A DNA stretch of 64,000 nucleotides from contig NZ_JAHBCL010000006.1 of assembly GCF_018390735.1 (NCBI RefSeq), forward strand, positions 62,001 to 126,000, read 5' to 3'. Position numbers and translations under genes: made by a program. The stretch comes from Fusibacter paucivorans. Its GTDB lineage: Bacteria > Bacillota > Clostridia > Peptostreptococcales > Acidaminobacteraceae. Position 1 is the stretch's first letter. Each line of letters opens with the position of its first letter. The notes under the pieces were generated by a model. The model was not told where the DNA came from, made no database searches, and saw only the letters and a program-made list of their open reading frames with translations. Below are positions 10,980 through 59,285 of the stretch, piece after piece.

Positions 10980-11059
10980 CGTTACCTCGCTTTCTCAGTG
11001 ATGTCATCAATGATTACGCGTAGATTATACCAGAAATGCTCTAAAGGGTCAAAATGACT

Positions 11060-11088
11060 TTGCATGCATGCCGTGCATAAGCTATAAT
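11060..11088 (+). promoter_or_regulatory. Sigma-A type promoter of the iclR gene
   Basis: TTGCAT (11060-11065) and TATAAT (11083-11088) are separated by 17 bp. The spacer and its flanks are rich in TGCATGC/GTGCAT half sites (TGCATGCATGCCGTGCA, with ATGCAT repeated just downstream), which could be an autoregulatory operator. Confidence 0.65.
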
Positions 11089-11135
11089 GAAAATATTAAC
11101 ATGCATTATACCAGTCTTTACCATGTGAGGTACTT

Positions 11136-11873
11136 ATGAAAGAAGAAAACAATTCCCTTCGAAAAGCATTAACGGTTCTCGACCTTTTTCTCAGGCGAGA
11201 TCGACTAACCATAAAGGACATCATGCAGCTGACCGGCTATTCAAAAAGTGCCGTCAATCGCATTATGTCTACGCTGGAAAGTACAGACTATGTGATCCGA
11301 ACCAAAGAGGACTATCAGTACGCACTTGCCAACAAAGTATTTTTTTTAGGCGAACGTACGGATCTTTACCGCAATATTCTCGCAGTCTGCGGTGACGAAG
11401 TCGAGGCGCTTTCCGTTCGCTCAGGATTCTCAGTTACGATTTCCGTTCGCGAAAGGAACATGAGTGTCACCATTTTTAAACGTGAATCAAATTCCACAAT
11501 GAGTCTCGTCCCCAATGTCGGCGATCATAAATCCCTACACTGCTCAGCTTCCGGCAAAGTACTCTTCGCCTATACTGAAAACAAGGAGAGTCTTTTAGAA
11601 CAAATTCTTTTCAATGCCGTCACGGAACACACCATCGTTGACAAAGATCGTTTTCTGGAAGCCGTCGAACGCGTCAAACACGAACACGTCGCCTATGACG
11701 ATGAGGAACTCTCGCCGGGGCTTTTCTGCGTCGCAATGCCCGTTGTTTCAAAAAATGGCGATTTTCTTTGCAGCATCAGTCTTTCAGGCTATAAACCGAA
11801 AATGCTTGAGAAAATGACAGAAGTCAAAGCCGAACTCAGACAGAGTATTGAGCGTATTCGAGAACGGCTGTAA
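11136..11873 (+). CDS. IclR family transcriptional regulator
   Basis: This 245-aa protein has an N-terminal winged helix-turn-helix (about 7-65; LTIKDIMQLTGYSKSAVNRIMSTL) and a C-terminal IclR effector domain (about 75-245; LHCSASGKVLFAY and VAYDDEELSPGLFCVAMPV). IclR proteins bind small organic acids and usually repress catabolic operons. The start has GAGGT upstream. It is convergent with iorAB, so it does not control them from a shared promoter, although distant control is possible. The effector cannot be read from sequence. Confidence 0.9.
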   Translation: MKEENNSLRKALTVLDLFLRRDRLTIKDIMQLTGYSKSAVNRIMSTLESTDYVIRTKEDYQYALANKVFFLGERTDLYRNILAVCGDEVEALSVRSGFSVTISVRERNMSVTIFKRESNSTMSLVPNVGDHKSLHCSASGKVLFAYTENKESLLEQILFNAVTEHTIVDKDRFLEAVERVKHEHVAYDDEELSPGLFCVAMPVVSKNGDFLCSISLSGYKPKMLEKMTEVKAELRQSIERIRERL

Positions 11874-11960
11874 CACATTGAGCTAAAGTGTGTGACAAAA
11901 ACTATCTATTTTTTAAAGCCTTTGTAACCATTTCCGAATCATTTATAATCGAATCAAACA

Positions 11961-11997
11961 AGCCTGCGTTAGCACTGTTTAAGTGCTGCCGCAGGCT
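11961..11997. terminator. Hairpin terminator between iclR and iorB
   Basis: AGCCTGCG pairs with CGCAGGCT, with an inner AGCACT/AGTGCT stem around a 5-base loop. A T-rich stretch follows on the plus strand. It lies between two convergent genes and may serve both. Confidence 0.75.
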
Positions 11998-12053
11998 TTC
12001 ATCTTATTTTATACACATCTCTCTTTAAAAGATGCACGAGACAAAGCAGTCCT

Positions 12054-12626
12054 TTATGAAATCATTTGCATTCCCTGATCAAATGCCCGCTTATTGAGTT
12101 CAATAAATTTAGGCTTGACTTCAGATGCAATAATAGCATGCCAATCAATCGCTTCGAGTCCCATCGCTTTAACCAATGCGCCAAGGAGAATGATATTCAT
12201 CACTTTTGGATTACCAATGGTCATTGCTGCACTTGAAGCATCAACAAAATCTGTCTTTGTTGCATCAGTGAGGACTGATTTAATGTCGGAGCTGTACTGC
12301 GCCCTTCCAGTTAATACCGGCATCGGATTAATCTCAAAGTCATTGACAATCAATTTACCGTCTTTTTTAAGATACGGCATCCATCGCATAGCTTCCATTT
12401 TTTCAAAAGCGACGAGAATATCGGCACTGCCAGCTTCAATCACCGGCGATGCAACGTTATCGCCAAAACGAACTTGTGACGATACAGAGCCGCCACGCTG
12501 ACTCATGCCATGTATTTCACTCATTTTCACATCATAGCCGGATTTCATTAAGCCAATTGTCAGCAGCTTGCTTGCCAGAATAGTTCCCTGACCGCCAACG
12601 CCAACTAGTAAAATATTTTTTGTCAT
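12054..12626 (-). CDS. iorB: Indolepyruvate:ferredoxin oxidoreductase, beta subunit
   Basis: The 190-aa protein is a pyruvate/ketoisovalerate oxidoreductase gamma-domain subunit with the motifs GVGGQGTILASKLL and SEIHGMSQRGG. With IorA it oxidatively decarboxylates aryl pyruvates (indolepyruvate, phenylpyruvate, hydroxyphenylpyruvate) to aryl-acetyl-CoA, reducing ferredoxin in the cytoplasm. Its ATG overlaps the iorA stop by 4 bp (ATGA), so the two are translationally coupled. Its length is normal for the family. It is the last gene of a three-gene operon. Confidence 0.92.
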   Translation of the reverse strand: MTKNILLVGVGGQGTILASKLLTIGLMKSGYDVKMSEIHGMSQRGGSVSSQVRFGDNVASPVIEAGSADILVAFEKMEAMRWMPYLKKDGKLIVNDFEINPMPVLTGRAQYSSDIKSVLTDATKTDFVDASSAAMTIGNPKVMNIILLGALVKAMGLEAIDWHAIIASEVKPKFIELNKRAFDQGMQMIS

Positions 12627-14404
12627 TGTGCTGCCTCCTTTTCAATCGCTTTCACCGGACAAACTTGCAGACATACCTCACATCCGACACAGACATTCGG
12701 ATCAATAGTCGTCTTCTTCGTTTCCTGATTAAAGCTTATCGCAGGACACCCGACACCCAAACACTTTTTACAGCCAATACATTTCTCTGTCTTAACCGTA
12801 CAATGCGCTGTAAAAGCATCTTTAAATTCTTCTCGGTCTGCTTCTGTAAAGCGTTTAAGTGCACATGGCCATCTCGTGATAATAAAAGAGGCTTCATCAG
12901 ACTCAAGCGCCCAATTCAGTGTCTCTTTAACTTCTTTCAAATTATTGGGATCAATTTGACGGACGCGCTTAGCCCCAAGGGTTTTTAAAATCGGCTCAAT
13001 GGCCATTTCACCAATGTGTTCCCCTTGAATCGTATACCCAGAACCTGGATTCTCCTGATGACCCGTCATCGCCGTCACGCGATTGTCCAAAATAACATTG
13101 ATACTGTTGCCTTTATTGTAAAGTACTTCAATCACTGAGTTAATTCCCGTATGGAAAAACGTCGAATCGCCTAATACGGAAATGACGCGTGGTGCCTCTG
13201 CACCAAGTTTGTTAAAAATCGTCTGAGCACCATGTCCCATACTAATGCTGGCACCCATACAGATACTGAAGTCAGTTGCATTATACGGTTCATCAAAACC
13301 CAGTGCATAACAACCAATATCACCTGAAATGACAACATTTTTTAATTTGCCAAGCTCATAGAAAAAACCTCTATGCGGACACCCAGCACAAAATGCAGGG
13401 GGACGCGGCACGGTTAAGTCTTCAAAATCAATGGTATCAAACGAAGGCTGTCCCAATGATTTACGAATAACATCCGGTGTCATTTCACCCATTTTGGGGA
13501 AAACTTCTTTACCTTTACAAGCAATACCAAGACGCTCAACGAATTCTTCAATAATGGGATCATTTTCTTCGATAATATAAATTGTCTTAACTTCTTTTGC
13601 AAATGCAGCAATCTTAGCGGCAGGCATCGGATTTGTAAAACCGAGCTTTAAATAAGAAGCCGTATCACCAAACACTTCACGAGCATATTGATAAGAAACG
13701 CCTGACGTAATGACACCAATCTCCGAATTATTTAGAATCATCTGATTAAGCGGTGTCGTTTCTGAAAACACCCTCAGCTTTTCCAAGCGTTCTTCAGCAC
13801 GAACACGCATGCCACGTGCATGTTTTGGTATAGGATGATATTTTGACATATGTTTCGTATAAGGCTTTATTGCCTTTTCATTACGATCATAACACTCGAC
13901 AAGTCCTTTTGAGTGACAGACGCGAGTTGTCATGCGAATCATCACGGGCGCATCAAAAGTTTCACTGATTTCAAAAGCTTCAATGAGCATATCCTTGCAT
14001 TCCTGACTGCTAGCAGGCTCCAACAGTGGAATTTTAGCAAATTTTGCATAATTCCGATTATCCTGCTCATTTTGTGATGAGTGCATTCCAGGCTCATCAG
14101 CCGTAATCAGCACCATCCCGCCGTTAACACCCGTATAGGCAAATGTCATTAATGGATCCGCAGCAACGTTGACGCCAACGTGTTTCATTGATGCCATTGA
14201 GCGTGCACCTGCAATCGAAGCGCCAATCACCGCTTCCAATGCTACTTTTTCATTAGGTGCCCATTCAGAAGTGATTGCTTCATATTGCGCAATATTCTCC
14301 ATAATTTCAGTGCTTGGCGTACCCGGATATGCCGCAGCAAAGTGCACGCCGGCTTCATAGGCACCACGTGCAATACTTTCATTGCCGGTTAATAGCTTTT
14401 TCAT
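12623..14404 (-). CDS. iorA: Indolepyruvate:ferredoxin oxidoreductase, alpha subunit
   Basis: The 593-aa protein has pyrimidine-binding and pyrophosphate-binding thiamine diphosphate domains (GDSTFFHTGINSVIEVLYNK) and a C-terminal pair of [4Fe-4S] motifs (CIGCKKCLGVGC and CVGCEVCLQVC). These identify the alpha subunit of IOR, used in anaerobic catabolism of aromatic amino acids with ferredoxin as acceptor. AGGAGG 5 bases upstream selects the second start of the track (ATG at 14404). It overlaps the stop of the upstream membrane protein by one base (TGATG). Confidence 0.94.
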   Translation of the reverse strand: MKKLLTGNESIARGAYEAGVHFAAAYPGTPSTEIMENIAQYEAITSEWAPNEKVALEAVIGASIAGARSMASMKHVGVNVAADPLMTFAYTGVNGGMVLITADEPGMHSSQNEQDNRNYAKFAKIPLLEPASSQECKDMLIEAFEISETFDAPVMIRMTTRVCHSKGLVECYDRNEKAIKPYTKHMSKYHPIPKHARGMRVRAEERLEKLRVFSETTPLNQMILNNSEIGVITSGVSYQYAREVFGDTASYLKLGFTNPMPAAKIAAFAKEVKTIYIIEENDPIIEEFVERLGIACKGKEVFPKMGEMTPDVIRKSLGQPSFDTIDFEDLTVPRPPAFCAGCPHRGFFYELGKLKNVVISGDIGCYALGFDEPYNATDFSICMGASISMGHGAQTIFNKLGAEAPRVISVLGDSTFFHTGINSVIEVLYNKGNSINVILDNRVTAMTGHQENPGSGYTIQGEHIGEMAIEPILKTLGAKRVRQIDPNNLKEVKETLNWALESDEASFIITRWPCALKRFTEADREEFKDAFTAHCTVKTEKCIGCKKCLGVGCPAISFNQETKKTTIDPNVCVGCEVCLQVCPVKAIEKEAAQ

Positions 14405-43910: not shown

Positions 43911-45524
43911 TTATGTTAATTGCCTGTTTTGCATTCGAAACTTTCCCGGTGTCATACCCTCCCGCAGCTTAAAGCACTTGGTAAAATAACTGACATTCTG
44001 AAAACCGGACCGATGGGCAATATCAATAATCTTCATATGACTATTCAACAGCATCACCTTTGCCGCGTCAATACGCAAATCGGTGATATAGTCTGTAAAA
44101 GAGCATTGATTTACTTCATTGAATTTGGCACTTAAATAATTGGGCGAAATGTAAAAGTGCGTCGCAACTGACTGAAGATTTAACGGTTCTCTATAATGCA
44201 GCTCCAAATATTGATTGACACGCTCTATGAGCGTCCCGTCATTTTCTGCATAAGAATCCTTAATGTCACTAAGGCATTCTATACAAAATGTTTTGAGCAA
44301 TCCTTTTCGATCCTCAACATCGCGCTTTGTCAGTGCTTCTTCATACTTTCGCATTAACCGCGCCGTTTTTTCAAAGTCTTTTGTCTTCCGCGCCGGCACT
44401 CTCGAGAGTACCACTATCATTTCCATGATTGTTTTCAGATCATAATTGGTCAGGTAAGTTGCCTCATCCAGCAATTGAGTTACTCTTAAAGCATCCTCAT
44501 CGACCAGCGCATTTTCGAGTGCCATTTCCAGCGCATATGGATACATCATCTTTGGCGTTCGTCGTGAACTGTCAATAAGAAAACTGTCATGGGCATTCCG
44601 AGCACCCGTCTTGAGTAAACGATCTTTAAGTTTCAGCTGTTCCTGTGTTTTTCTGAGCAATTCGTTTTCTTTATCGAGCAGAACACTTTCCAAAACACGT
44701 CGCTCGTGAACCATATTGATAAATTGAGCCGCAATGGTCATGTGATCAAAGACGACGTATATTCTGCTTTTGATAAATGTTTTAAACCGGCTGTACTCTC
44801 TGGCCGCCTGTTCTGCTTCATTGCCAAAATCGCCAAAGCTGTTGCGCGTGTAATCACCACCGCCAAGTACAAAGCGCTCTGTCCACAAAGTGCCGTATTG
44901 CCGTTCATTGAGTACCAATGGTGCCGCAATCTGAGAAACACCATAGGGACAGTAATACTGACGGATCCCGTCATGAGGTGTCTGTTCTGATTCAAGTGCA
45001 CAATCTCGGTGTCGGGCACACGTTATACAAAATTCCGGGAGTGTCAAATCACAATTGCCGCCTCTAAGGTAGTGCATGTCGAGTTTCAAGAGTTGGCTCA
45101 GTTCTTCTGTAACATTTTGTATCAGCTCTAAATTCACATGTTCGGTCACATCAACATGCCATTCAGATACCTTGGGCATATCAAGCGGTGATAGAGAAAT
45201 TGGCGCATAGATCACCATGAGCACTAAATCTTCCTTTGCAGATTCATTAATGACAACGTGCTCGGCAAACGGTGCAACATATTGAAAGGCTGTTGATTCA
45301 ATATGACGTTCAACGCCGTTATTAATAAAAATGCCTTTCCCTGACAAAACAAAGAGCATCTGTTCTTCACCAACGTGAAAGTGCTTGTTTTGGTGCGCTT
45401 TTGGCGATATGACAACACGCGCCAGACTCAGATGATGATGAGGGGAATCCGACGGTTCATGAAGCCATTCGATGGTTCCCCAATTAAATTGCTGCACATC
45501 TACATGATAATCTGTACGATTCAT
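43911..45524 (-). CDS. AraC family regulator with cupin and PocR-like sensor domains
   Basis: The protein of about 537 residues has an N-terminal cupin (about 20-115; HQNKHFHVGEEQMLFVLSGKG), a Cys-rich PocR-like sensory domain (about 130-270; CITCARHRDC and YYCPYGVSQIAAP) and a helical linker. The C-terminal AraC double helix-turn-helix spans about 430-537 (LNLQSVATHFYISPNYLSAKF and IIDIAHRSGFQNVSYFTKCF). PocR domains bind small diols or hydrocarbon derivatives. The ribosome site favours the second ATG (MNRTDY). It probably controls the adjacent BASS transporter or ilvD. Confidence 0.88.
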   Translation of the reverse strand: MNRTDYHVDVQQFNWGTIEWLHEPSDSPHHHLSLARVVISPKAHQNKHFHVGEEQMLFVLSGKGIFINNGVERHIESTAFQYVAPFAEHVVINESAKEDLVLMVIYAPISLSPLDMPKVSEWHVDVTEHVNLELIQNVTEELSQLLKLDMHYLRGGNCDLTLPEFCITCARHRDCALESEQTPHDGIRQYYCPYGVSQIAAPLVLNERQYGTLWTERFVLGGGDYTRNSFGDFGNEAEQAAREYSRFKTFIKSRIYVVFDHMTIAAQFINMVHERRVLESVLLDKENELLRKTQEQLKLKDRLLKTGARNAHDSFLIDSSRRTPKMMYPYALEMALENALVDEDALRVTQLLDEATYLTNYDLKTIMEMIVVLSRVPARKTKDFEKTARLMRKYEEALTKRDVEDRKGLLKTFCIECLSDIKDSYAENDGTLIERVNQYLELHYREPLNLQSVATHFYISPNYLSAKFNEVNQCSFTDYITDLRIDAAKVMLLNSHMKIIDIAHRSGFQNVSYFTKCFKLREGMTPGKFRMQNRQLT

Positions 45525-45618
45525 TAGCATAACCTCCCCCAGTGGCAGTACAAATGTTATACAGTTTTATCATACACTAGTTCGCATCAATTCAAAACCG
45601 GTGTTTATAAAATCGCGT

Positions 45619-47283
45619 TTAATCTCCGCTAAGGACAGCGCCGCGGTTGCCGGATGTCACCAGTTTGGCGTAGCGTTTCAGGTATCCCGTTTTAATTTTC
45701 GGCGGTTTAGGTATCCACGTTGCACGCCTTATTGCTAAAACCTCATCGGTCACTTCGATGTTAATTTCGCAGGCATCAATGTCAATCGCGATGATATCCC
45801 CTTCTTCAATTAATGCGATATTGCCGCCAACAGCAGCTTCCGGCGAAACGTGTCCTATTGCGGCACCTCTTGTCGCGCCACTGAAGCGCCCGTCGGTGAT
45901 GAGTGTCACGGACTCTCCTAAACCGCGTCCCATAATTGCTGCAGTAGGGTTTAACATTTCACGCATTCCCGGACCACCTTTTGGGCCTTCATATCGGATA
46001 ATTACCACATCACCCGCTACAATTCTGCCTTCGTTAATGGCTGTAATTGCCGCCTCTTCACCATCAAAAACCCGCGCAGGTCCCTTGTGTTTCATCATTG
46101 CTTCTGAAACGGCCGAGCGTTTGACCACACAGGTATCCGGCGCTAAATTGCCGCTTAATACCGCGATGCCGCCTTTTGTGCTAAACGGATTCTCAATCGG
46201 ACGAATTACTTGTGGATCAATAATTTCACACCCTATTATATTGTCTGCAACGGTTTTTCCCGTACATGTGAGCACATCACCGTTTAGAAGGGTTTGTTTA
46301 TTCAATTCGTGCATGATTGCATAAACACCTCCGGCTCGGTGAAGGTCTTCTATATAATCATCACCCGCCGGTGATAAGTGACAAAGATTCGGCGTGCGTT
46401 CACTAATCGTATTTACTTTTGTTAGATCAATCGTCACATCTGCCTCATAGGCAATTGCCGGTAAATGCAGCAGACTGTTTGTACTGCATCCAAGCGCCAT
46501 ATCAACGATGATGGCATTTTCAAATGCCGCCTCTGTCATAATGTCCTTTGGCTTAATGTCTTTGCCGATCAGCGTCATAATTTGCATGCCTGTTTGTTTA
46601 GCCAACATTAGCCTCTCTGAGTAAATCGCCGGCAACGTGCCATTCCCCTTAAGTGCCATGCCCAATACCTCAGTCAGACAATTCATGCTGTTTGCCGTAA
46701 ACATCCCCGAACACGACCCACAAGTCGGACACGTTTTTTCCGCCATTGTTTCCAGTGTTTCTCGCGATAGCTTTCCTACTTTATAAGCACTCACCGCCTC
46801 GGTAATCGTTGTAAACCCAATTTTTTCAGCTTCAAATACGCCTGCCAGCATCGGCCCGCCGCTGACAAAAATCGACGGTATATTCAGGCGTGCTGCCGCC
46901 ATCAACAATCCCGGTACATTTTTATCACAGTTTGGCACCATGACCAGCCCATCCAGCATATGCGCCATGGCCATTGCCTCAGTAGAATCAGCAATGAGTT
47001 CTCGCGTTACCAGTGAATAGTGCATGCCCTCGTGCCCCATGGCAATCCCGTCGCAAACGGCAATTGCCGGAAAGACAACAGGTGTACCGCCAGCAGCAAT
47101 CACACCGGCACGAACTGCCTCTGTCATTTTGTCCAGATTCATATGTCCCGGAACAATTTCATTGTAGGAATTGACAATGCCGATAATTGGTTTCGCTAAT
47201 TCGACATCTGTCAGTCCAAGCGCCCGAAGCAAGGCACGTTTCGGTGCATTTGCCGCACCGAGTTTAATCGCATCACTTCTCAT
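45619..47283 (-). CDS. ilvD: Dihydroxy-acid dehydratase
   Basis: The 554-aa protein is a full-length IlvD/Edd family enzyme. It dehydrates 2,3-dihydroxy-3-methyl acids to the 2-keto acids of valine, leucine and isoleucine synthesis. Cluster ligands expected for the family are Cys77 ([12 protein letters not shown]), Cys119 (PNCDKNVPG) and the CPTCGSC segment (185-191). The usual PCN position of the [2Fe-2S] type reads GHMNL here, so it is the oxygen-labile [4Fe-4S] type. AGGAGG precedes the ATG. No other ilv gene is nearby, so a sugar-acid dehydratase role cannot be excluded. Confidence 0.88.
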
Positions 47284-47441: not shown

Positions 47442-50400
47442 CTAATAGACGGGCTGTAATGATATCCGATCATAGATATTCCCAGTGATCTCAACGTCAT
47501 CAATAGACGCCTTCACACTTGACAGCTCTTGACTCGCCGTAAGCTCTGCCTCGTAAGGACTTCGCTTTCGAATATCTTCCCATGACAGCGTTGAAGGCGC
47601 CAGCGGCAGTAAATACGTCCCCTCCCAATTACTCATGGCACTCGCCTCATCATAAGAGACCATACTTAGCGCCAATGGAAAGGACACATCGTACCCAACC
47701 AGTTCTTCATATTCATAGACGACACCATAAGGGTCTGTATACGTCATTGCCATCAACTCCGGCGACAGCATCACTGCTACTGTCTCCGGAAGACCTTGAA
47801 CAGAAGCGTGAAAGGTCACTGTTTCAAGCGACAAAAATCGGTGCGCATTCGGCGTCAAATAAATGCCGCGATAATCTGTACGCCCATCCCAGTGATTCCA
47901 CGCGCCTGTAATCTCAAAATCACTGATATGCAGCGGCTGTACGATAAAAGTTTTGACGTCTTCATCAGTCGCCGTCCCATCACTGACAACCGCCTTGGCG
48001 GTATAGGTTCCTTCCGGTAAGTTATCATACGATTTTTTTATCATTTCATATTGCGTGCCAAGCCACGCCACGGGGAATGTACTGACATCATAAGTCGTAC
48101 CGTCTTTTATAACCGTCAGGGTTACGGTGAGCGGCTCATGATCACCATCGTCAAACAGCATGGCGACGGTTGCCTTCTGCCCTGCATAAAGCGTTTCGGG
48201 GGTTACACCAACTGTCACAGAAGGCGGCAGATTGCGTGGTATGACATTAAAGCTGTAGTTGACGTAATTCGATGTTGCATAGCCATCCCATGCCGCCACT
48301 TGTCCTAGATAACTGCCGATTGGTAAATTCGGGAATGTGAACAGCACATCACTGTATATGCCGCCAACAGGCGCAACTGTGGTGTTCTGACGACTATATA
48401 ATACACCTTCCTTGTAAAGCTCTGTCTGAACAAACAGGTTTTGCGGGTCGATGTCCGTTAAATGTGTCGTCAGTGTATTGCTGTCGCCATCGAGCACTTC
48501 TGGGAATGCAATTTCTGCGGTGATGTATGGCGGTGAATTGACATAGACGGGAAATGTAGCAGTTGCCGTGGCATTGCCATAGTCATCTGCTGCAAATGCC
48601 CTTACAGTGTAAGTCCCCGCACTGAGGTTATTAAGTGTTATCACTTCATCGGTATAAGGCGACGTTTTATTGTAGCTAAACGTCCGATAAACGGTGCCGT
48701 CTTTGAGAACCGTTACATCGAGTGCCAAATCATCCCCTTCCGCATCATATACACTGACAAATGCCGTGTTGGTATCTGTCTCAAAGAGATACAGCGATGC
48801 TACATTAACCGCTACAGCTGGTGGTGTATTGGGGATCACGGTAAACACCAGTATTTGCGTCGCTGTGGCCGCCCCATCATTCACTGTTGCCGTCACCGCG
48901 TAATTGCCCGTCTCAAGATTTGGAAGCGTCAGCGTCGTCGTATCGTACGGGTATGACTTCATATACGATTTAGACAGATATACTTCGCCGTCCTTCTTCA
49001 CTTCAACGCTCAATGACAGATTATCCAAATTCGGATCGCTGACATTGAGATACACAACATTGTCACGCCCCTGATACAGTGCGGTTGCCGCTAAACTGGC
49101 CGATAGTGACGGCGGGTCATTTGCATAGAGAGTGATGTCTTTTCTGACGTAATGCCGTTCACCTGTTATGGTACTTACCATTGCGATTTCCATTTGGTAC
49201 GTTTTATTTTCAAGTCCAACCACATCAGGTATATAGAAGTCCTGCGGCTGCCAGTTCCAATCGTAGAAATTGCCCGATATTTTTGAATAATCATCCACAA
49301 CCATCATTGGCACGTTTTCTACAGGAAGACCATTAGATTCAAGAAGCCTTATTTCGAGGCGATGTTCTGGTTGAAATCTTCCTGAATCACGCACATTGAT
49401 GTTATACCACTGCACGTAATTGCCCGGTCGAAATGCCGTCAATGGATTGCCCGCATTGCTTGACTGTAAATCCGCTGTAATACTCAGCAGGTAGTGTTGC
49501 GGCGGGGGTGTAGCAATGGTTTTCTCTGTCCAGTCACTCCATACCCCTTCAACATCTTTAGCGCGAAGGCGCATATAAGTGCCGCTAATGCCTGCATACC
49601 CAGTGGGTAATATTCCTGGCTGCCAAGGCTCTGAATTAAGTCGATACTGAACCTCAATTTGTTTGATGCCTCGATCCGGATCACTCTTATGATCGTAATC
49701 GTAGGATAAATCTTCAAAAGCTTGGGGATTCCAATTGTAGTAGAAATCTGCCACAGGTTTTCGGTGCACCAAAACTGTTTGATGCATTTTATCACGCGAC
49801 CAATAGCGATACTTATCCAGTGCATCGTTCTTCCCAACAGGATTATCACGCACGTAAAAGTCCATATCATACTTTCCTACTTTATCGAAGATGATTTCAT
49901 CACCCCGAAATTGTGTATTGTGATACCCTGATACACCCATGCTGTTTTCATAATAATATGGGTCTGTATGTACGATATCAGCTCTAAAATCATAGCGTGC
50001 ATCATTTTCATAATCGTGGTAAAGTGAGGCAATTGACAACGGATCACCAACTGTCACCAAGATCGTCTCTGCTTCTGCACTGCCCTGATCTTGCAGGTTG
50101 ATTAACGCATTGCCCAGTTCCGTGTATTGACTCATCCGTAATGCACTGCCGAGTTTATCACTTTGATTCGTCGTAATAAGCTGCTTTTGTGTTATTAAAT
50201 TTGCCAGTTGATTGGATTCGTTGGCAGAGATATAAGAAAAGTCATCGCTGCCAAGCAGGACGTAGTACGTGTTCTCCGATAGCTTTTCAAGCTGATTTTT
50301 GGTGTTGGTATAAAAATAGTTCTTCGTCTGAACGTTATATGCCCAAACACCAGCATCAAAGAGCTGCCTTAGATAAATATAATTCTGTTCTGCACGTTCT

Positions 50401-53400
50401 ACATAATTAAATTCAATGTACTGATTGTGCGTTCCTGCCCAACTTCCCGTCGAAACGCAAAATGTACCCACGTTTGCAGGTGCCAGCATGTGATCGTAGT
50501 TCATGTAAAACGGCGCATAATAATCTGTATCACCATTTTTATCTTCTACAGGGTAAGCCGCCCCCTCATCAATCGTTATATTCATGGTATTCTGTGGTGC
50601 GTGATTTACAAATTGACTGCCCTGTACAATATTTGAAGCGTTAATATTATCGTCTTGATAACTAACAATCGTATCTTGACCTGTTTTGACATTGTAAGCA
50701 TGGTAATAACCTTGGAAGTAGTATAAAACACTATCCGGCATATCCTTATAAGCTGCAATCCACGGTCTGGACTGGTCATCATAGGTTAGATCAAAATCTT
50801 GTACCTTATGCCATTTTATCTGAAAGTCTTTTGTGATTTCGACCAGTGCATACGCTGTAATTGAATAATCTCTTTTATAGTAAAAGTAGTATTTTTGCAT
50901 GTAGAAGATTGATGCGTCAGGATTTTGTGTAATCATGTCATTGTATGATGTCACCGCATGCTCGCTTGCAGGATACGAATAAATGCTCGATGTATAAGCA
51001 AGCATATCATTAACGCTATAAACAGGTGAATCACCGTAATTAAAGAAATTAGCAGGGCACCAATGGGAAGGTGTAATAACCTGTCCCGTATCTAAGTTAG
51101 TAATTTTACAGCCAAGCAAAAATTCTTCAGGGTAATCTCCCACTGTCATATAGACCTTGTTTGAATATCCCGTCGTATACCCTAGAGGCGCTGAGACGCC
51201 ATACAGCGAATCGGTACTCAATCCTTGAGACGATACCATTTCGTAACCCACTGGTTGATTGACAATTTCAAAACTGTCAATGAAGATGTTCTCTGATTTC
51301 AGTTGCGTTGTTAATGAGCCATTGATATAGGCCGTCAGCATTTCAGGGCTAAGGCCACTGTTCCCCGTTTGAAGCTTCAAATTGATGTGTTTGGGCGCTT
51401 TCACCGTTACCGCTGTACTTGGCGGGATGTTGTCCACCTCAACGATATGGTTTTGATTAACAGAGCCATCGTAGGTACTGTCATATAGATAAACGGCACT
51501 GCTTTCCATGCCGGGCATTGGTGTGTAGGTTTCTGCAACAGAAAGTGCTACATAGTATTTGCCCACACTGGATACGTTAAATGAATAATCCTTGTTTTCT
51601 GAACCGTCTGCATTTCTTTTCGGCGCACCCCAATAGGCGATATGTTGCACTTCATCATCAAACCGATTATCACCGTCGTGATCGTACCAGTAAGATACTT
51701 GAATGGAGCCAATAGCATCACCATCTTTGGATGTACTTTCATTTAATACCGAAATGGTTGCCGTGTTGCTGTTCGATGGGTCGCGATAGACTTTATTCAC
51801 TACCGATAAAGCAGCTTCCGGCGGTTCATCCGGTGTAATGGTAATGATTTTACTTGCCTGTCCTTCATAGCCAAGAGTGTTTTTCAGTGTGACGGACGTG
51901 TTAATCGTTCCCGCTGTTGGTACACCAAAATCAAACTTTCGGCTGCCGTCAGGATCGGCAGGCGAATAGACGCCCGATGCCGCATTAACGGTGCCGCTTG
52001 AAACCCACCAATCCGTTTGACTGTCTACAATGGGAAATTTATCGGGGCTGTCCGACTGCATGCTCGATACGGTAATCTTACGGTATGGTTTGAGCTGTCC
52101 TTCGGTATGTATAACGGCATCGACTGTGGGCGGCAGTACCATTGTTGTATCTTCACCATAGCCACTGTAGCCAAGGGTATCAATGGCAACCCCTGTAAAG
52201 GTCTGTTCACCTTCCCTTGTAAATTCATACTGTTTATTCAAATAGCCATCGGTTGGATGTTCAACGGCTATGTCAGTGCTCCCATCATTTAAGATAAGAT
52301 AGTCCAGTGCGCCCGTGACGCTGCTCCCACGTACTGTTATCCCCTTTGTATCACCGACCTTTGCCGTTTTGGGGGCATTGACTTTGACTTCCGGCGGCTT
52401 CGGCTCACCCACCACAACGGTCATATCATCACCACTTGCCTCTAGGACGCGGCCGTCTTTCAGCGTGACATCGACGGTAACGTTCCAAGGCTGTTTAATC
52501 TTTTTATCTGGGTTGTCGGCAAAAGGCGCACCATCAATGGTTCGATGAAATGTCACGGTAGGATTAATGACACTGGCATATTGACATTCCCCGTCAAGCC
52601 ACACGGCAATATTCGCTACATTTGCAGTGGTAACTTTATAAAGTGAGATGTCAGCAGTGATGCTGACATCGACATCACTGCCGCTTGATGTTTTATACCG
52701 CGGATTTGCCGTTACAAGACAGCTCGCTGTGGGGACAGCAGGTTCTTCTACGGTAACGATGACTTTTCGCGTGAGGTTTCCTGACTTTTTCGGGTCATTT
52801 TTAAAAATGGTATCCAGTACGTAACTGCCGCTGATTTCAACTTCTTGTGTGCCTACCACCAGTTCACTTCTGTTAATGCGCACGGTTCTGTTAACCGTCT
52901 TTCTCAGTACAGAAAATGCCGCTTCTGCGCTGTCAATCACACTGCCATCTTTGCTGATACTGGCTTCAAACTGTTTGACATGCTCTTTTTTCATATATTG
53001 ATTGTCCGGTACAATGACTGCCGTATACGAGGTATTCACTTCAACAAATTGCTGATCGGATGCCATTGTAACGGCAATGTCATTGTTTTGAAGATTCAGC
53101 GTTAACCATTGATCGACGCGTGCATTTGATGCCATGCCGTCGCCAATCCACGTTTGATAATATTTACCGCGCTCCGTTCGCACAGAAAAGTTCGTATACC
53201 AACCGCCAGCTGTAAGCAGAAGGGTGCGCTTATAGCTATCTGTGACGCCATCAATGGGATAAGCATTCAGCGCACCCATTGACCGCGTATTGTTGATCGT
53301 TTCAACGGTGTACTGTGTATTGATATCGTTTGGATTTGTATTAATACCATTGCCGCCGATCCAGTGTGCGGTCATGTATTCACGTAAGTTTCCGTCTTTA

Positions 53401-53882
53401 ACAACTTGCCACGAAGCAGGTGCACCTTTTACATCGGAATATTCTTCAATCCACTTATTTTTATCTGATAACGGCGCATCTGGTGGATAGTAGGCATTAG
53501 TGACAACTTCGCCGCTTGCACTATAACCTAAATAACGATAGCCTGTTGTACCCGTCTTTTTATCATTATAGATTTCTTCTGCTGAGCTGTTTTCATGGGG
53601 ATAGCCAACAGGAAGCGAATCGTAGTTAATTATCTTTTCATTGCCGTAGACAACAAGGCCGTATTTATCGTAATCGGCTTTGTTGATATATAGCGTTTTG
53701 CCTGTGCTGAAATTATCAACTTTAAGTGGCAATGATTGCGCCACTATGAAATCCTCAAATGATGCATAGCCGCTATAATTTACCGAATAAGTAAATAATG
53801 GCGATTCGTCAGCGGCGGCACTAATGGGGACACTGCTTATAAGCAAGGCAACAATTAAAATCATGGATAGATATTTTTTCAT
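47442..53882 (-). CDS. Giant secreted surface protein with Ig-like repeats (2146 aa)
   Basis: A signal peptide (MKKYLSMILIVALLISSVPISAAADE) is followed by a very long extracellular chain. Most of it is beta-rich and I do not recognise a family. At the C-terminal side there are four repeats of about 100 residues starting near 1584, 1687, 1782 and 1884, each opening N.PP and including an L.V.V.KDG.....S motif and an LP.G.Y...A...DG segment. This is an Ig/cadherin-like fold. There is no LPXTG, SLH or choline-binding anchor. The SLH protein lies 20 bp upstream and could hold it at the S-layer. AAGGAGT precedes the ATG. Likely roles are adhesion or surface structure. Confidence 0.8.
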   Translation of the reverse strand: MKKYLSMILIVALLISSVPISAAADESPLFTYSVNYSGYASFEDFIVAQSLPLKVDNFSTGKTLYINKADYDKYGLVVYGNEKIINYDSLPVGYPHENSSAEEIYNDKKTGTTGYRYLGYSASGEVVTNAYYPPDAPLSDKNKWIEEYSDVKGAPASWQVVKDGNLREYMTAHWIGGNGINTNPNDINTQYTVETINNTRSMGALNAYPIDGVTDSYKRTLLLTAGGWYTNFSVRTERGKYYQTWIGDGMASNARVDQWLTLNLQNNDIAVTMASDQQFVEVNTSYTAVIVPDNQYMKKEHVKQFEASISKDGSVIDSAEAAFSVLRKTVNRTVRINRSELVVGTQEVEISGSYVLDTIFKNDPKKSGNLTRKVIVTVEEPAVPTASCLVTANPRYKTSSGSDVDVSITADISLYKVTTANVANIAVWLDGECQYASVINPTVTFHRTIDGAPFADNPDKKIKQPWNVTVDVTLKDGRVLEASGDDMTVVVGEPKPPEVKVNAPKTAKVGDTKGITVRGSSVTGALDYLILNDGSTDIAVEHPTDGYLNKQYEFTREGEQTFTGVAIDTLGYSGYGEDTTMVLPPTVDAVIHTEGQLKPYRKITVSSMQSDSPDKFPIVDSQTDWWVSSGTVNAASGVYSPADPDGSRKFDFGVPTAGTINTSVTLKNTLGYEGQASKIITITPDEPPEAALSVVNKVYRDPSNSNTATISVLNESTSKDGDAIGSIQVSYWYDHDGDNRFDDEVQHIAYWGAPKRNADGSENKDYSFNVSSVGKYYVALSVAETYTPMPGMESSAVYLYDSTYDGSVNQNHIVEVDNIPPSTAVTVKAPKHINLKLQTGNSGLSPEMLTAYINGSLTTQLKSENIFIDSFEIVNQPVGYEMVSSQGLSTDSLYGVSAPLGYTTGYSNKVYMTVGDYPEEFLLGCKITNLDTGQVITPSHWCPANFFNYGDSPVYSVNDMLAYTSSIYSYPASEHAVTSYNDMITQNPDASIFYMQKYYFYYKRDYSITAYALVEITKDFQIKWHKVQDFDLTYDDQSRPWIAAYKDMPDSVLYYFQGYYHAYNVKTGQDTIVSYQDDNINASNIVQGSQFVNHAPQNTMNITIDEGAAYPVEDKNGDTDYYAPFYMNYDHMLAPANVGTFCVSTGSWAGTHNQYIEFNYVERAEQNYIYLRQLFDAGVWAYNVQTKNYFYTNTKNQLEKLSENTYYVLLGSDDFSYISANESNQLANLITQKQLITTNQSDKLGSALRMSQYTELGNALINLQDQGSAEAETILVTVGDPLSIASLYHDYENDARYDFRADIVHTDPYYYENSMGVSGYHNTQFRGDEIIFDKVGKYDMDFYVRDNPVGKNDALDKYRYWSRDKMHQTVLVHRKPVADFYYNWNPQAFEDLSYDYDHKSDPDRGIKQIEVQYRLNSEPWQPGILPTGYAGISGTYMRLRAKDVEGVWSDWTEKTIATPPPQHYLLSITADLQSSNAGNPLTAFRPGNYVQWYNINVRDSGRFQPEHRLEIRLLESNGLPVENVPMMVVDDYSKISGNFYDWNWQPQDFYIPDVVGLENKTYQMEIAMVSTITGERHYVRKDITLYANDPPSLSASLAATALYQGRDNVVYLNVSDPNLDNLSLSVEVKKDGEVYLSKSYMKSYPYDTTTLTLPNLETGNYAVTATVNDGAATATQILVFTVIPNTPPAVAVNVASLYLFETDTNTAFVSVYDAEGDDLALDVTVLKDGTVYRTFSYNKTSPYTDEVITLNNLSAGTYTVRAFAADDYGNATATATFPVYVNSPPYITAEIAFPEVLDGDSNTLTTHLTDIDPQNLFVQTELYKEGVLYSRQNTTVAPVGGIYSDVLFTFPNLPIGSYLGQVAAWDGYATSNYVNYSFNVIPRNLPPSVTVGVTPETLYAGQKATVAMLFDDGDHEPLTVTLTVIKDGTTYDVSTFPVAWLGTQYEMIKKSYDNLPEGTYTAKAVVSDGTATDEDVKTFIVQPLHISDFEITGAWNHWDGRTDYRGIYLTPNAHRFLSLETVTFHASVQGLPETVAVMLSPELMAMTYTDPYGVVYEYEELVGYDVSFPLALSMVSYDEASAMSNWEGTYLLPLAPSTLSWEDIRKRSPYEAELTASQELSSVKASIDDVEITGNIYDRISLQPVY

Positions 53883-53902
53883 TTAATGACTCCTTAGCGA
53901 AT

Positions 53903-55327
53903 CTAATGAATCGTAAAAAAGATGTGCAACGGGGCATCAGATTTTGAAATAAGCGGCACGACAACATCAACATTACCAATGGTTTTCACCGCGTCGTAAT
54001 CAGGATAATTGTTACGTCCAAAATTGACATAGTAATTCGTATGTGTTTGTTGCACGTAATCCGCAATTTCAGCACCATACACCTCACCAAAAAAGGCCTT
54101 AACAGATTCTTTCAAAGGTGTCATATAACGGTCATCATATCCCTGTTTCCAGTATGTTTCTGTTCTTTCCGTATCATCATCATAAAGCCTATTGATGGTT
54201 AGCTCTACCGTGGCACCTTTTTTGGTTTGTGATGCCTTGTATGTTTTGGTATCTAAATAATGATCGTGATGTATTACAAATTGGAAGTATGGAAAATTAT
54301 TATAGTAATCCAGTTTGTTGCCAAGTGCTACTAATATGAATTCTTGTTGGCCACTTACGCCTTCCAGTGGACTTCTCGTCGTATAAAGACCTGAAAATCT
54401 TTCCAATCTCGCCATGTAGTTAAGTAAATTGTTTAATCTGGCTGTGAGATCCGGTGTATACGTATCTTTTACCACAAGGTCACCGTAACCGCCGCCGCCA
54501 TCTACAATTGTGAGGACACCATCTTCAAAGGTACTGATGGCATATTCTCTTGATAGGTGTTCTTCTTGGTATTCAGGCGATTGTGACTGCACCCACTCAA
54601 GCCACGACGAATCACCTTCAAGCGGTTTATCTTCTTCTATTGGCGTGCGCAGACTGTCATCTAGCAGTTTTGAGATCACAACACTGGCTTCGCCCCTTGT
54701 GGCATTGCCAAGCGGTTTAAAGGAACCGTCACCGTAGCCTGCGATGAAATTAAGGGCATAGGCTGTGGTGACTTCTGTTTTATAAGAAGCGGAGACATTG
54801 ACGAGATCACCAATTTGCTTTTGTGCTTTCGTCACAACGCCATCTGTGATGGCTGTGTCGCCGCCAATGGCATCATAAGCTTTTACAATAATCGATGCCA
54901 TTTCTTCTCTGGTAATAGCCGTCTCGTAGTCAGCTGCTGCCGTTGTATAATTTTCAAGCAGATTCATTTCGATGGCTTTTTCAATGTAAGGCATGCCCCA
55001 GTAGCTCCCAACTGGCGCAGTCGCATCTAGCGTGATCGTCCCCTCACTTTCAAGTGCTTTAAGCGTTAAAACGATAAATTCAATGCGTTTCAGTGTATTG
55101 TCAGGTTTAAAGGTACCGTCACCATACCCTGAGATAATGCCGCGGTCTGTCAGTGACGATACATAGCTGTTTGACCAGTGGGTGGTCATGTCGGAAAAGC
55201 CATTGCCATTAACATTAAGACCACTGTTGCTGTCCCCGTTGCCGTTATTCACCGCAAATGCAAAACCAGAAAGAAATAATACCCCTGCCATTATACCTGT
55301 TGTCACTTTGATTTTCAGATTTTTCAT
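53903..55327 (-). CDS. S-layer homology (SLH) domain protein
   Basis: The protein of about 474 residues has a signal peptide (MKNLKIKVTTGIMAGVLFLSGFAFA) and three SLH motifs (about 40-85, 100-150 and 165-220; HWSNSYVSSLTDRGIISGYGDGTFKP, and AYALNFIAGYGDGSFKPLGNATRGE). The second motif is degenerate. The C-terminal 230 residues are not recognised. SLH domains bind pyruvylated cell-wall polymer, so the protein is on the outer surface. The ribosome site GGGGAG selects MKNLKI, 17 codons inside the track ORF. It is co-transcribed with the giant protein and may anchor it. Confidence 0.87.
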   Translation of the reverse strand: MKNLKIKVTTGIMAGVLFLSGFAFAVNNGNGDSNSGLNVNGNGFSDMTTHWSNSYVSSLTDRGIISGYGDGTFKPDNTLKRIEFIVLTLKALESEGTITLDATAPVGSYWGMPYIEKAIEMNLLENYTTAAADYETAITREEMASIIVKAYDAIGGDTAITDGVVTKAQKQIGDLVNVSASYKTEVTTAYALNFIAGYGDGSFKPLGNATRGEASVVISKLLDDSLRTPIEEDKPLEGDSSWLEWVQSQSPEYQEEHLSREYAISTFEDGVLTIVDGGGGYGDLVVKDTYTPDLTARLNNLLNYMARLERFSGLYTTRSPLEGVSGQQEFILVALGNKLDYYNNFPYFQFVIHHDHYLDTKTYKASQTKKGATVELTINRLYDDDTERTETYWKQGYDDRYMTPLKESVKAFFGEVYGAEIADYVQQTHTNYYVNFGRNNYPDYDAVKTIGNVDVVVPLISKSDAPLHIFFTIH

Positions 55328-55855: not shown

Positions 55856-56935
55856 TTATTTCGTTGCTTCTTCGAAGTATTTGCTGGTAATCGTCGTATC
55901 GTCAAGTACCGCAGGCTCTGTCAGCAAGCCGTATTTGTAAGCGAGGTCTGCCGTTTGTTGGATGGCATCCATATCGATGTAGCCGATTTTTGCAGGGTCA
56001 AAACCTTCTGGTGTAACAAGTTTTGCGATTTCTTTTGCCATGTAGACTTGGTGCTCAAGCGAAACACTTTGGTCAGCATCATAAACGACTTGACCTGCCG
56101 CTTCAGGATCTGCACATGCATCTTGCCATCCTTTGATAGAGGCTCTTAAGAATCTGACGAAGAGGTCTTCGTTTTCCGCAATCCATTCATCAGTAACGAA
56201 TAGACAGTCTTCAAGCATTGCAACGCCTTCATCATTCATATCAAGGACGTTTAAGTCTGCATCCGAAAGACCTGATTCGAGCAATAAGCCGTATTCATTG
56301 TAAGTCATGGCAGAAGCTGCATCAATTTCGTCATTGAGTATTTGGTTCATGGTAAAGTCTTGTTGTACGAGTTCGAGATCTTTTTCTCTGTCGATGCCGT
56401 TTGCTTCGAGAAGTGCATAAATTTCATACTCATTGCCGCCGAACCAAGAGCCAACTTTTTTGCCGACTAAGTCTTCCGGTGATGTAATGCCTGTTTCTGC
56501 TTTAGAGACGAGAAGCATTGCGCTCTTTTGGAATACTTGTGCCACTTCTTTGAGTTCCCATCCTTGTGACTGGTACTTCAGCAAGCTCGATACCCAAGTG
56601 ACACCGACATCGGCAACGCCGTTGTAAACTTGCTGTTCAGGGATGATATCACTACCGCCCGGCAAGATTTCAATATCAATGCCTTCATCTTCATAGTAAC
56701 CTTTGGAAGCCGCCATATAGTACCCCATAAATTGTGACTGAGGCAGCCATTTGAGCTGAATCGTCATTTTGTCCATTTCTTTTGGCGTGTCCGTGGATGT
56801 TGACGATTCGGTTGTTGTTTCTGATGCAGAAGCGCTTTCTGTCGATGCAGGCGCACTCGAGCTGCACGCTGACATCAGGAGTGATACCATAAGCAGCATC
56901 ACTAACACAAGTTTTAAATTTCTCTTTTTAAACAT
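55856..56935 (-). CDS. ABC transporter substrate-binding lipoprotein (NMT1/SsuA type)
   Basis: The 359-aa protein has a lipoprotein signal (LLMSAC, lipid Cys24), a Ser/Thr-rich linker and an NMT1/THI5-like binding domain (about 50-340; IQLKWLPQSQFMGYYMAASKGYYEDEGIDIEI). This family includes binders of thiamine-type pyrimidines, nitrate, sulfonates and riboflavin. GGGAGG precedes the ATG. Two permease genes and an ATPase gene lie upstream in one operon with pyrimidine catabolic enzymes, so uracil, thymine or a related pyrimidine is the likely ligand, which is inference. Confidence 0.87.
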   Translation of the reverse strand: MFKKRNLKLVLVMLLMVSLLMSACSSSAPASTESASASETTTESSTSTDTPKEMDKMTIQLKWLPQSQFMGYYMAASKGYYEDEGIDIEILPGGSDIIPEQQVYNGVADVGVTWVSSLLKYQSQGWELKEVAQVFQKSAMLLVSKAETGITSPEDLVGKKVGSWFGGNEYEIYALLEANGIDREKDLELVQQDFTMNQILNDEIDAASAMTYNEYGLLLESGLSDADLNVLDMNDEGVAMLEDCLFVTDEWIAENEDLFVRFLRASIKGWQDACADPEAAGQVVYDADQSVSLEHQVYMAKEIAKLVTPEGFDPAKIGYIDMDAIQQTADLAYKYGLLTEPAVLDDTTITSKYFEEATK

Positions 56936-56956
56936 TTAAATTCCTCCCTTATTTTT

Positions 56957-57724
56957 CTATCTTTGTGAAGCATGCCACTTGATGACATTGCGTTCTAACA
57001 ATAAGATGACGATGTAAATCAAAACGCCGGCAAGTGATGCGACGACGATATACGACCAGCCCATTGCCATTTCAGCTTTTCTAAGGTTATCTTTGATGCC
57101 AAAGCCGAGACCGGCTGTTGACGTCGCAAAATATTCGCTGATAATAGCCGCAATAATGGAAGCTGCTACGTTGATTTTAAACGCCGTAAAAACATTGGGC
57201 ATACAGTTTGGCAATCGGAGCTTCTTAAAGATCACCCAGCGTTCAGCCGCCACGGAGTGCATTAAGTCCATGGAATACGGCTTCAAGGTGTTGAGTCCGC
57301 TGTATGCGTTCATGGCCATTGCAGCCATGCAGACAATGGTAACGACGCCGATTTTCTGCGCCATCCCCGTCGAAAAATACAGGTTCATAATTGGCGACAA
57401 GGCGACAATTGGCATTGCATTAAAAGCTGTGATAATGATAAGACCGCCATAGCCCCACTTCGGAAAAATCGTTGCGATCACGGCGATCATAAAGCCGATG
57501 GCCGATCCAATCATCATGCCGATAAAAGCACCTGAAAGGGTAACGCCGCAGTCTTTAATCGCCTTTGGCAAGTTCGCATGCAGTGTCTGCACGATTTCTA
57601 ATGGCACGGGAAGTTGAAACGGTTTTAAATCCAATACTTTATGGACGTATCCCATTTGCCACAGTGCTAAAAAAGCGATCCCGAAAAGCAATGGCCACAA
57701 GATATTCTTAACTTTGTTCATCAT
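56957..57724 (-). CDS. ABC transporter permease (SsuC/ThiX-like), second copy
   Basis: The 255-aa protein has six membrane helices and the EAA-type loop for ATPase contact (EYFATSTAGLGFGIKDNLRKAEM). It is homologous to the neighbouring permease, so the importer uses a heterodimeric channel. Its ATG overlaps the stop of the upstream permease by 4 bp. It passes the substrate delivered by the lipoprotein into the cytoplasm. Confidence 0.88.
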   Translation of the reverse strand: MMNKVKNILWPLLFGIAFLALWQMGYVHKVLDLKPFQLPVPLEIVQTLHANLPKAIKDCGVTLSGAFIGMMIGSAIGFMIAVIATIFPKWGYGGLIIITAFNAMPIVALSPIMNLYFSTGMAQKIGVVTIVCMAAMAMNAYSGLNTLKPYSMDLMHSVAAERWVIFKKLRLPNCMPNVFTAFKINVAASIIAAIISEYFATSTAGLGFGIKDNLRKAEMAMGWSYIVVASLAGVLIYIVILLLERNVIKWHASQR

Positions 57725-58512
57725 GCCGTTTCACCCTCCTTTCCCGATTGCCATGGGAGGAAGAAATGCTCTGCATTAATCACGAGATAGTAACTGACAA
57801 TTCCTAAAATAGCACTGGTAATAACGGAAGCCCAAAAAATATCCATTGAGCTTGAATAGAGCGAATAAAGCATTTTTACGCCAATGCCGCTCTTTGAACC
57901 AAGCATGTCAACTAAGATAGAGGCCGTAACAGCCATTGGCGCGGCAATTTTTAAACCTGTAAACAAATAGGGCATCGCGTAGGGCAGCATCAGTTTTCGA
58001 TAGACATTGAATTTTGATGCCGCAATGGCATAAAGCAGCTCTTTCTTTTCTTGATCAACGCTTTTGAGACCACTGAGCATATTGACGGAAACCGGGAAGA
58101 ACGTAATGTAGGCGGCTATGATAATCCTCGAAAGATTCATATCCCTGACAATATTGAAAATAATCGGCGCCAGCCCCAATACCGGGATCATCTGTGAAAT
58201 GATGAGATATGGAAACGCAATGCGCTCCAGTGTCTTGGATAAACTCATGAGAATGGCTAAGACGACGCCAATGACAGCTCCAATGGCAAATCCCAAGAGC
58301 GCTCGCGAAAAGGTTACAGCGCTTGCTTCAAGCAGCATGCCGGCATTTTGGAACATGGTGATAAAAATCGTATGGAGAAATGGTAATTTTACCGATGCCA
58401 TCTCACTCTTCACCACGTATTTCAAGATGAAGGCCATGATTTCCCAGAATGCCAGAATACCGACTAGCCAGACGGCTGTTACCAGCCTTCTTTCATGTTT
58501 TGAGATGGTCAC
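57721..58512 (-). CDS. ABC transporter permease (SsuC/ThiX-like), first copy
   Basis: The protein of about 263 residues has six membrane helices and a BPD transport domain with the cytoplasmic coupling segment VDMLGSKSGIGVKMLYSLYSS. AGGAGGTG upstream selects the GTG start 7 codons inside the track ORF, giving a 4-bp overlap (GTGA) with the ATPase gene. It pairs with the second permease. Confidence 0.88.
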   Translation of the reverse strand: MTISKHERRLVTAVWLVGILAFWEIMAFILKYVVKSEMASVKLPFLHTIFITMFQNAGMLLEASAVTFSRALLGFAIGAVIGVVLAILMSLSKTLERIAFPYLIISQMIPVLGLAPIIFNIVRDMNLSRIIIAAYITFFPVSVNMLSGLKSVDQEKKELLYAIAASKFNVYRKLMLPYAMPYLFTGLKIAAPMAVTASILVDMLGSKSGIGVKMLYSLYSSSMDIFWASVITSAILGIVSYYLVINAEHFFLPWQSGKEGETA

Positions 58513-59285
58513 ATTTTCACCTCCTGAAAGCACTTTCTAATCTTTGCTACGTATTCAAAGAATTCAGGTGAATCTCTGAGTTCATTGCGCCTCGGTCTTG
58601 GCAAATCAATGTCAACTACCGCTGCCAATTTACCCGGATGAGGCGTCAAGACGATGACGCGATCTGAAAGAAAAACGGATTCCGGAATATTGTGTGTGAC
58701 GAAAATAACGGTACTCTTTGTCTTGCCCCAAATCTCGAGCAAATCTTCATTGAGCTTTTCTCTTGTAAACTCATCCAGCGCCGAGAACGGCTCATCCATG
58801 AGCAGGTATTTAGGATTAAGCGCCAATGCTCTGGCAATGCCGACACGCTGCTGCATACCACCGCTGAGTTCAAATGGATATTTCTTGCCAAAGTCTTTCA
58901 GCCCTACCAAATCCAGCTTTTCATCAATCCGTGAAGTTCGCTCTTTTTTCGGAACGCCCATAATCTCCATGGGCAGACATATATTGCGTCTGACCGTTCG
59001 CCAATCGTAAAGAACCGGCTGTTGGAACACAATGCCATATTCCTGTTTGATCCGTATATCCCTCGGAGACTGACCGTCAATAATAATTTCACCGTCCGTT
59101 GGCTGAAGCAAATCGGCGATGATTCTTAAAAGCGTCGTTTTGCCGCACCCAGAAGGGCCTAACAGCGAAATGAACTCTCCTTCTTTAATATCTAAACTAA
59201 CACTGTCCAGTGCATTGATTTTTTCACCTGCATTATTGGTGTAAACCATGCTGACATCTTTTACTTGAATTTGTGTTTCTGACAT
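58509..59285 (-). CDS. ABC transporter ATP-binding protein (SsuB/TauB-like)
   Basis: The 258-aa ATPase has Walker A GPSGCGKTTLLRII, Q-loop VFQQPVLYDW, signature ELSGGMQQRVGIARAL, Walker B YLLMDEPFSALDE and switch His (FVTHNIPESVFLSD). Its closest types are nitrate/sulfonate/taurine and thiamine-precursor importers. It powers the two permeases encoded downstream. GGGGGA precedes the ATG. It lies 30 bp after the dihydropyrimidine dehydrogenase gene. Confidence 0.9.
   Translation of the reverse strand: MSETQIQVKDVSMVYTNNAGEKINALDSVSLDIKEGEFISLLGPSGCGKTTLLRIIADLLQPTDGEIIIDGQSPRDIRIKQEYGIVFQQPVLYDWRTVRRNICLPMEIMGVPKKERTSRIDEKLDLVGLKDFGKKYPFELSGGMQQRVGIARALALNPKYLLMDEPFSALDEFTREKLNEDLLEIWGKTKSTVIFVTHNIPESVFLSDRVIVLTPHPGKLAAVVDIDLPRPRRNELRDSPEFFEYVAKIRKCFQEVKM

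Follow-up and report, generated by a model that had tools for sequence, protein, structure and literature searches.

The window, by which we mean the whole 64,000-nucleotide stretch of Fusibacter paucivorans DNA that was analysed, carries on its minus strand a gene for an SLH-domain protein followed directly by a gene for a giant secreted protein. The features of this pair are listed below, with residue numbers referring to the protein concerned.

53903..55327, minus strand: gene of the SLH anchor protein, 474 aa when counted from the second ATG (Pfam SLH, E 2.6e-26)
54644..55198, minus strand: SLH repeats, the wall anchor, residues 44-228 (Pfam)
53906..54643, minus strand: putative dock, residues 229-474, which form the C-terminal domain of the anchor protein (related domains occur in the partners of other giants)
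53883..53902, minus strand: spacer of 20 bp, with an AAGGAG ribosome-binding site at 53895-53890
47442..53882, minus strand: giant secreted protein gene, an ORF of 2146 aa (239 kDa, pI 4.55)
53811..53882, minus strand: signal peptide of the giant, residues 1-24 (hydrophobic window at residues 2-26)
53184..53687, minus strand: Athe_2463 domain (NF047340), residues 66-233 (E 5.3e-14), the proposed contact to the anchor protein
51783..52145, minus strand: conserved module gKENR, residues 580-700 (alignment and HMM survey)
51381..51767, minus strand: Ig/FN3-like module gCA, residues 706-834 (AlphaFold pLDDT 70-90; Foldseek FN3/Ig matches)
50103..51335, minus strand: hypervariable central region, residues 850-1260, a putative recognition domain (drop in identity between paralogues)
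49509..50060, minus strand: module gVHR (VHRKPxADF), residues 1275-1458, two Ig-like sandwiches (pLDDT 81-96)
47931..49121, minus strand: four Ig-like repeats, residues about 1588-1984, of 97-102 aa each (mutual matches)
47445..47948, minus strand: conserved C-terminal module gCT (WNHW..PHRFLS..GNIYD), residues 1979-2146 (alignment and HMM survey)

The two ORFs and their 20-bp spacing agree exactly with the original prediction, the signal peptide of the giant is confirmed, and for the SLH gene a longer start is also possible, at an in-frame ATG at 55378. The AAGGAG motif stands 7 nt before the ATG of the giant, and with this ribosome-binding site in the spacer the SLH gene and the giant gene after it look like parts of a single transcription unit. 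Upstream of the SLH gene there is a promoter-like site, such matches being not clearly above chance. To either side of the pair (window positions 43911-47283 and 55856-59285) are ilvD, an AraC/PocR-type regulator with a cupin, and two ABC permease genes together with that of a binding protein; neither of these two flanks holds a gene for a surface protein, a sortase or glycosylation.

Both proteins carry a signal peptide. That of the giant (residues 2-26) is the only hydrophobic stretch in its chain, and the absence of a sorting signal that had been claimed for this protein holds, as neither an LPXTG-like motif, nor a lipobox after the signal peptide, nor a C-terminal transmembrane segment was found in its sequence, which places it outside the sortase-anchored and lipoprotein-anchored classes. 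For many giant proteins that Clostridia and Bacilli secrete, no anchor can be seen. The SLH protein belongs to the SLH class, with 91.8 bits to PF00395 against a gathering score of 20.8 and two stretches that pass on their own.

The giant had been described as containing about 1500 residues without a recognised domain. This is correct for Pfam, but NCBIfam places NF047340 at residues 66-233, where the full profile (1-177) is matched with 53.1 bits against a curated cut-off of 36 bits, making the giant a member of the Athe_2463 family, and structure prediction gives Ig/FN3-like folds at about 700-830 and 1275-1460. Foldseek matches to residues 700-1465 are to common Ig/FN3 folds only, a phmmer search of the giant against the PDB returned no match, and by Pfam neither the giant nor the SLH protein has a Cohesin, Dockerin or enzyme domain that passes the cut-off. 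The four C-terminal Ig-like repeats of about 100 residues that had been proposed are real, resembling each other with z = 8.0-15.5 relative to shuffled sequences. An HMM survey finds gVHR in nearly all complete relatives, and gCT is missing in the Paenibacillus and thermophile relatives. Between the Ig/FN3-like flanks the central core has an AlphaFold pLDDT of about 30, and because of this value we do not claim a vWA-like fold for it, which had been suspected from a strand-helix-strand pattern.

Past residue about 228 the SLH protein has no match in Pfam, and a Foldseek search of its C-terminal model against the PDB gave none either (best E 0.3), in agreement with its earlier description as unrecognised. 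A single dock family over all lineages was considered and given up, as profile-profile comparison failed between most groups; the relationship of the docks is solid between Paenibacillus and Vulcanibacillus and marginal between Fusibacter and Vulcanibacillus. Since the sequences are not recognisably homologous throughout and the AlphaFold pLDDT of the domain is 58, a dock fold common to the lineages stays putative. In Paenibacillus algorifonticola (L121:3317-5573) two successive SLH partners with unlike docks precede one giant.

Relatives of the giant were found in 25 of 41 genomes of its own family, which includes Fusibacter and Acidaminobacter, and a search for the Athe_2463 domain alone found it in 29 of 399 genomes sampled from the phylum. 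A wide scan of 85,000 species representatives, with a shortened alignment as query, gave 68 loci, among whose sources are Fusibacter, Acidaminobacter, Ruminiclostridium, Lutispora, Thermosediminibacter, Thermoanaerobacterium, Caloramator, Vulcanibacillus, many Paenibacillus and one Calditrichales record. Counting the 69 loci that contain the 5' end of the giant, which are partly interdependent as they include several Paenibacillus and Fusibacter paralogues, the gene directly upstream on the same strand encodes an SLH protein in 44, a PF07833 protein in 18 and neither in seven. The next downstream gene encodes SLH or PF07833 in 5 of 60 cases, and among background ORFs of the same loci the figure is 21/990 (2%), counted with the same SLH and CAO profiles, which were built from these partners. 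Anchor and giant are separated by a median of 11.5 nt, and by no more than 80 nt in 60 of 62 cases; on plasmid pVpro of Vallitalea pronyensis the pair has been annotated independently, 8 bp apart. Thus the original prediction, which was to be refuted if the two genes did not co-occur elsewhere, survives this check, the pair recurring in Clostridia, Paenibacillus and others with the anchor upstream in 62/69.

Several loci depart from this simple arrangement. The giant is split into two ORFs, with the order of the frames kept, at L077, L086, L087 and L116, which suggests decay, phase change or sequencing error. At L086, on a 1.7-Mb contig of Calditrichales bacterium MX18-03, an SLH protein adjoins the giant pieces outside the Bacillota, through either transfer or a misplaced record. 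Two tandem pairs of a CAO anchor and an Athe_2463 protein are present at L175:6399-9134 and 10564-13295, where the second proteins are short (612-613 aa), and in one family DUF4320 proteins with a pilin-like start lie directly upstream of the pair or the giant at L173:5080-5520 and L174:6026-6484.

The partners with PF07833 gave the first impression that the anchor had been lost. This was overturned by the CAO-like domain of Clostridium thermocellum OlpC, which, according to PMC4582956 (citing Pinheiro et al.), has been shown by experiment to bind secondary cell-wall polymers, as SLH does, and anchors OlpC. Among scaffoldins, an SLH module (SdbA/ScaF) and a CAO-like domain (OlpC/ScaG) serve the same purpose (PMC3413522). 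An HMM of the dock built from five Paenibacillus SLH partners matches the C-terminal domain of the CAO-anchored Vulcanibacillus partner with E 5e-17, and the Fusibacter dock HMM matches the same partner weakly (E 0.0017). Judged by these profile matches, in the case of Paenibacillus and Vulcanibacillus the anchors have been swapped and the dock has been retained, which is as expected of a protein composed of an anchor plus a dock. We also weighed whether the two genes might be neighbours only, with a giant that is freely secreted and an SLH protein that has another task; the docks do differ between lineages and the contact between the two proteins is putative, but the anchor gene directly upstream in 62 of 69 loci against the 2% background, and a pair that is kept while its type of anchor is swapped, make this reading very improbable. 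That the SLH partner anchors the giant seems to us, from the sequences compared, quite probable.

Which part of the giant could meet the dock was approached through rates of divergence. Compared with the DJKA81 MAG of the same genus (L088), the SLH repeats are 94% identical and the dock 53-54%, while the giant is 40-60% identical over residues 25-850 and 86-94% over 1821-2146. Across 11 close pairs, which are mutually dependent, the dock correlates with the N-terminal module of the giant (gNT) at rho = 0.80 and with the SLH repeats at rho = 0.52, and over all pairs, dependent in the same way, the dock and gCT show a rho of 0.14. As gCT is missing in many paired giants and does not diverge with the dock, we rejected it as the dock receptor. 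The joint divergence of the dock and the N-terminal half of the giant points to this half as the contact; however, the dock and the 5' end of the giant gene are adjacent on the DNA, so that recombination tracts could give joint divergence in the absence of any contact, and we would give an even chance to the dock contacting the N-terminal half, that is, the Athe_2463 domain and what follows it. The proposal of a dock at the C-terminal end of the SLH protein thus gains indirect support, in that the domain there stands behind two unrelated anchors and its divergence appears to track that of the N-terminal half of the giant.

The genome of F. paucivorans contains a second SLH and giant pair, divided between contigs C3 and C13, the halves of which we infer to be one gene, and its giant also matches the Athe_2463 domain. 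Between the two copies the SLH repeats, the dock and residues 25-700 and 1691-2146 of the giant are 85-96% identical, with dS of 0.25-0.52, while residues 851-1270 of the giant have only 16-24% amino acid identity and saturated dS. For the giant alone the figures are 86-96% at 25-700 and 91-95% at 1691-2146, with dS of 0.25-0.44, against 21-24% at 850-1270. Paralogues in Fusibacter ferrireducens follow the same course, being 84-99% identical at residues 201-800, 15-49% at 801-1400 and 79-93% thereafter. A recognition module would be expected to show just such a divergent core set in a conserved frame, and that the variable core binds a ligand is in our judgement a matter evenly balanced; alternatively, the core could be a passive surface that evolves fast and not a site of binding. 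Either exchange or diversification in place may underlie the divergence of the core.

Both halves of copy 2 are bordered by a repeat (L002:1-178 on contig C3 and L003:1-121 on C13) that has 16-17 matches over the genome, for the most part at contig ends or close to them. Because this high-copy repeat is found at both contig ends, copy 2 probably owes its break either to a mobile element or to the assembly, and the repeat itself is probably such an element, present in many copies and here inserted in the variable core. An intron or structured RNA at the break was rejected, an Rfam search there having given no match. Between L088 and L003, which represent two species, identity reaches 97% in the C-terminal part of the giant (95% at the DNA level) and is 36-47% in the part before it, a sign of recombination across species.

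One rival reading is that the giant is an S-layer or S-layer-associated lattice protein, for which the SLH protein would be a wall linker and which would recognise no specific ligand. The assembly domains of S-layers typically consist of Ig-like modules, the assembly domain of Bacillus anthracis Sap is among the weak Foldseek matches (E 5e-3), and the acidic pI of 4.55 and large size of the giant fit such a role. Against it, S-layer proteins usually carry their own anchor, genomes hold several variant copies of the giant with a hypervariable core, and many relatives are shorter, at 421-890 aa, than would be expected of a major lattice-forming protein, so we regard it as unlikely. The pair shares SLH wall attachment with SLH-anchored and S-layer proteins of Bacillota, but here anchor and giant are separate products.

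The closest described counterpart is Athe_2463 with Athe_2464 of Caldicellulosiruptor bescii, which form one operon, are extracellular and rise together strongly on xylan and xylose (PMC5865380). They have in common with our pair the N-terminal domain, secretion and the two-gene operon, but the proteins are shorter and the partner at the locus to which they probably correspond (L166, at 2.601 Mb in G220, matched by genome position only) has no SLH or CAO domain and is lipoprotein-like, which counts against our main reading. The induction by xylan and xylose makes binding of a polymer a live alternative, in which the pair would be a device for capturing polysaccharide (xylan or similar) for feeding and not an adhesin towards cells or surfaces. 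One Caldicellulosiruptor partner has a sub-threshold CBM46-like match (E 0.0027). A Y_Y_Y/Ig frame is common in carbohydrate-binding proteins, but Fusibacter and Acidaminobacter are mostly not polysaccharide degraders. As Pfam shows neither a glycoside hydrolase nor a CBM in the pair of the window, and with branched-chain amino-acid, transport and regulatory genes as its neighbours, we think a feeding role rather unlikely.

An accessory function in a Tad/Flp pilus, in which the SLH/CAO protein would fix the pilus and the Athe_2463 protein would cap or decorate it, is suggested by distant lineages where the pair is inside or beside Tad genes: at L180 it lies amid RcpC/CpaB, an A24 prepilin peptidase and TadE, and there is T2SSE at L168, while L171 has A24 peptidases and the C. 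bescii locus has Tad-like genes. Neither the window nor the other Fusibacter loci have a Tad gene beside the pair, though, and in F. paucivorans RcpC is on contigs C37 and C7, apart from the pair on C66 and copy 2 on C3/C13. A strong co-occurrence with Tad was also discarded, as RcpC is present in 19/29 genomes with Athe_2463 against 201/399 overall, which is modest, and such a function appears improbable.

Anchoring scaffoldins (SdbA/ScaF with SLH and cohesin, OlpC/ScaG with a CAO-like domain and cohesin) likewise join a wall module to a dock for an anchorless large protein, and their wall-binding module, SLH or CAO-like, is found in the anchor proteins studied here. However, the pair has no cohesin, dockerin, CBM or catalytic domain, its dock is unrecognised and the partner genes are adjacent. 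Cohesin and Dockerin gave no match to the two proteins even with E allowed up to 1, and they are also missing from the families listed for 22 giants and 33 partners, so that the pair would work in the manner of an anchoring scaffoldin but is not one. Giant Ig-rich adhesins such as GhpA of Aureispira and Bap have similarly long Ig/FN3-like chains, and fragments of GhpA as well as Bap are matched by the flanking modules in Foldseek, but the matches reflect common Ig/FN3 topology only and these adhesins are held on the cell by other means.

The recurrence of the pair over many Bacillota, in which the wall grips are interchangeable and the middle of the giant varies strongly, makes a general system for the surface display of a large, variable protein the most likely reading. 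More specifically, we consider it somewhat probable that the pair serves as a wall-docked adhesin or recognition fibre, in which an SLH or CAO protein docks an Ig-stalked giant, the adhesin class being inferred from architecture and the variable core. The SLH protein would be exported and bind secondary cell-wall polymer through its SLH repeats, and its C-terminal domain would hold the anchorless giant via the N-terminal half of the latter. The giant would then project outward as a chain of Ig/FN3-like modules, with the variable centre and the conserved C-terminal cap facing the outside, and the variable region would recognise something, whether a surface, a polysaccharide or a partner cell.

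Tentatively, and short of calling it probable, we propose that this is an undescribed general docking system for cell walls of the Gram-positive type, unrelated to cohesin-dockerin and sortases, which combines a swappable wall module, a dedicated dock, an Athe_2463-type giant and a recognition cassette that is exchanged or diversified between paralogues, its ends being homogenised by recombination. A limited search of the open-access literature found no description of the two-gene unit, the anchor swap or the variable core; the novelty first claimed for the system has nevertheless to be reduced, as the N-terminal domain was already a named family and co-expression of Athe_2463/2464 had been reported (PMC5865380). 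The variable core within a conserved frame makes the recognition target directly testable. If it is indeed a docking system, it would explain how one widespread class of anchorless giants is retained at the wall, would provide a function for Athe_2463, a named domain family of unknown function, and would constitute a cohesin-independent means of displaying large proteins on SLH-type walls.
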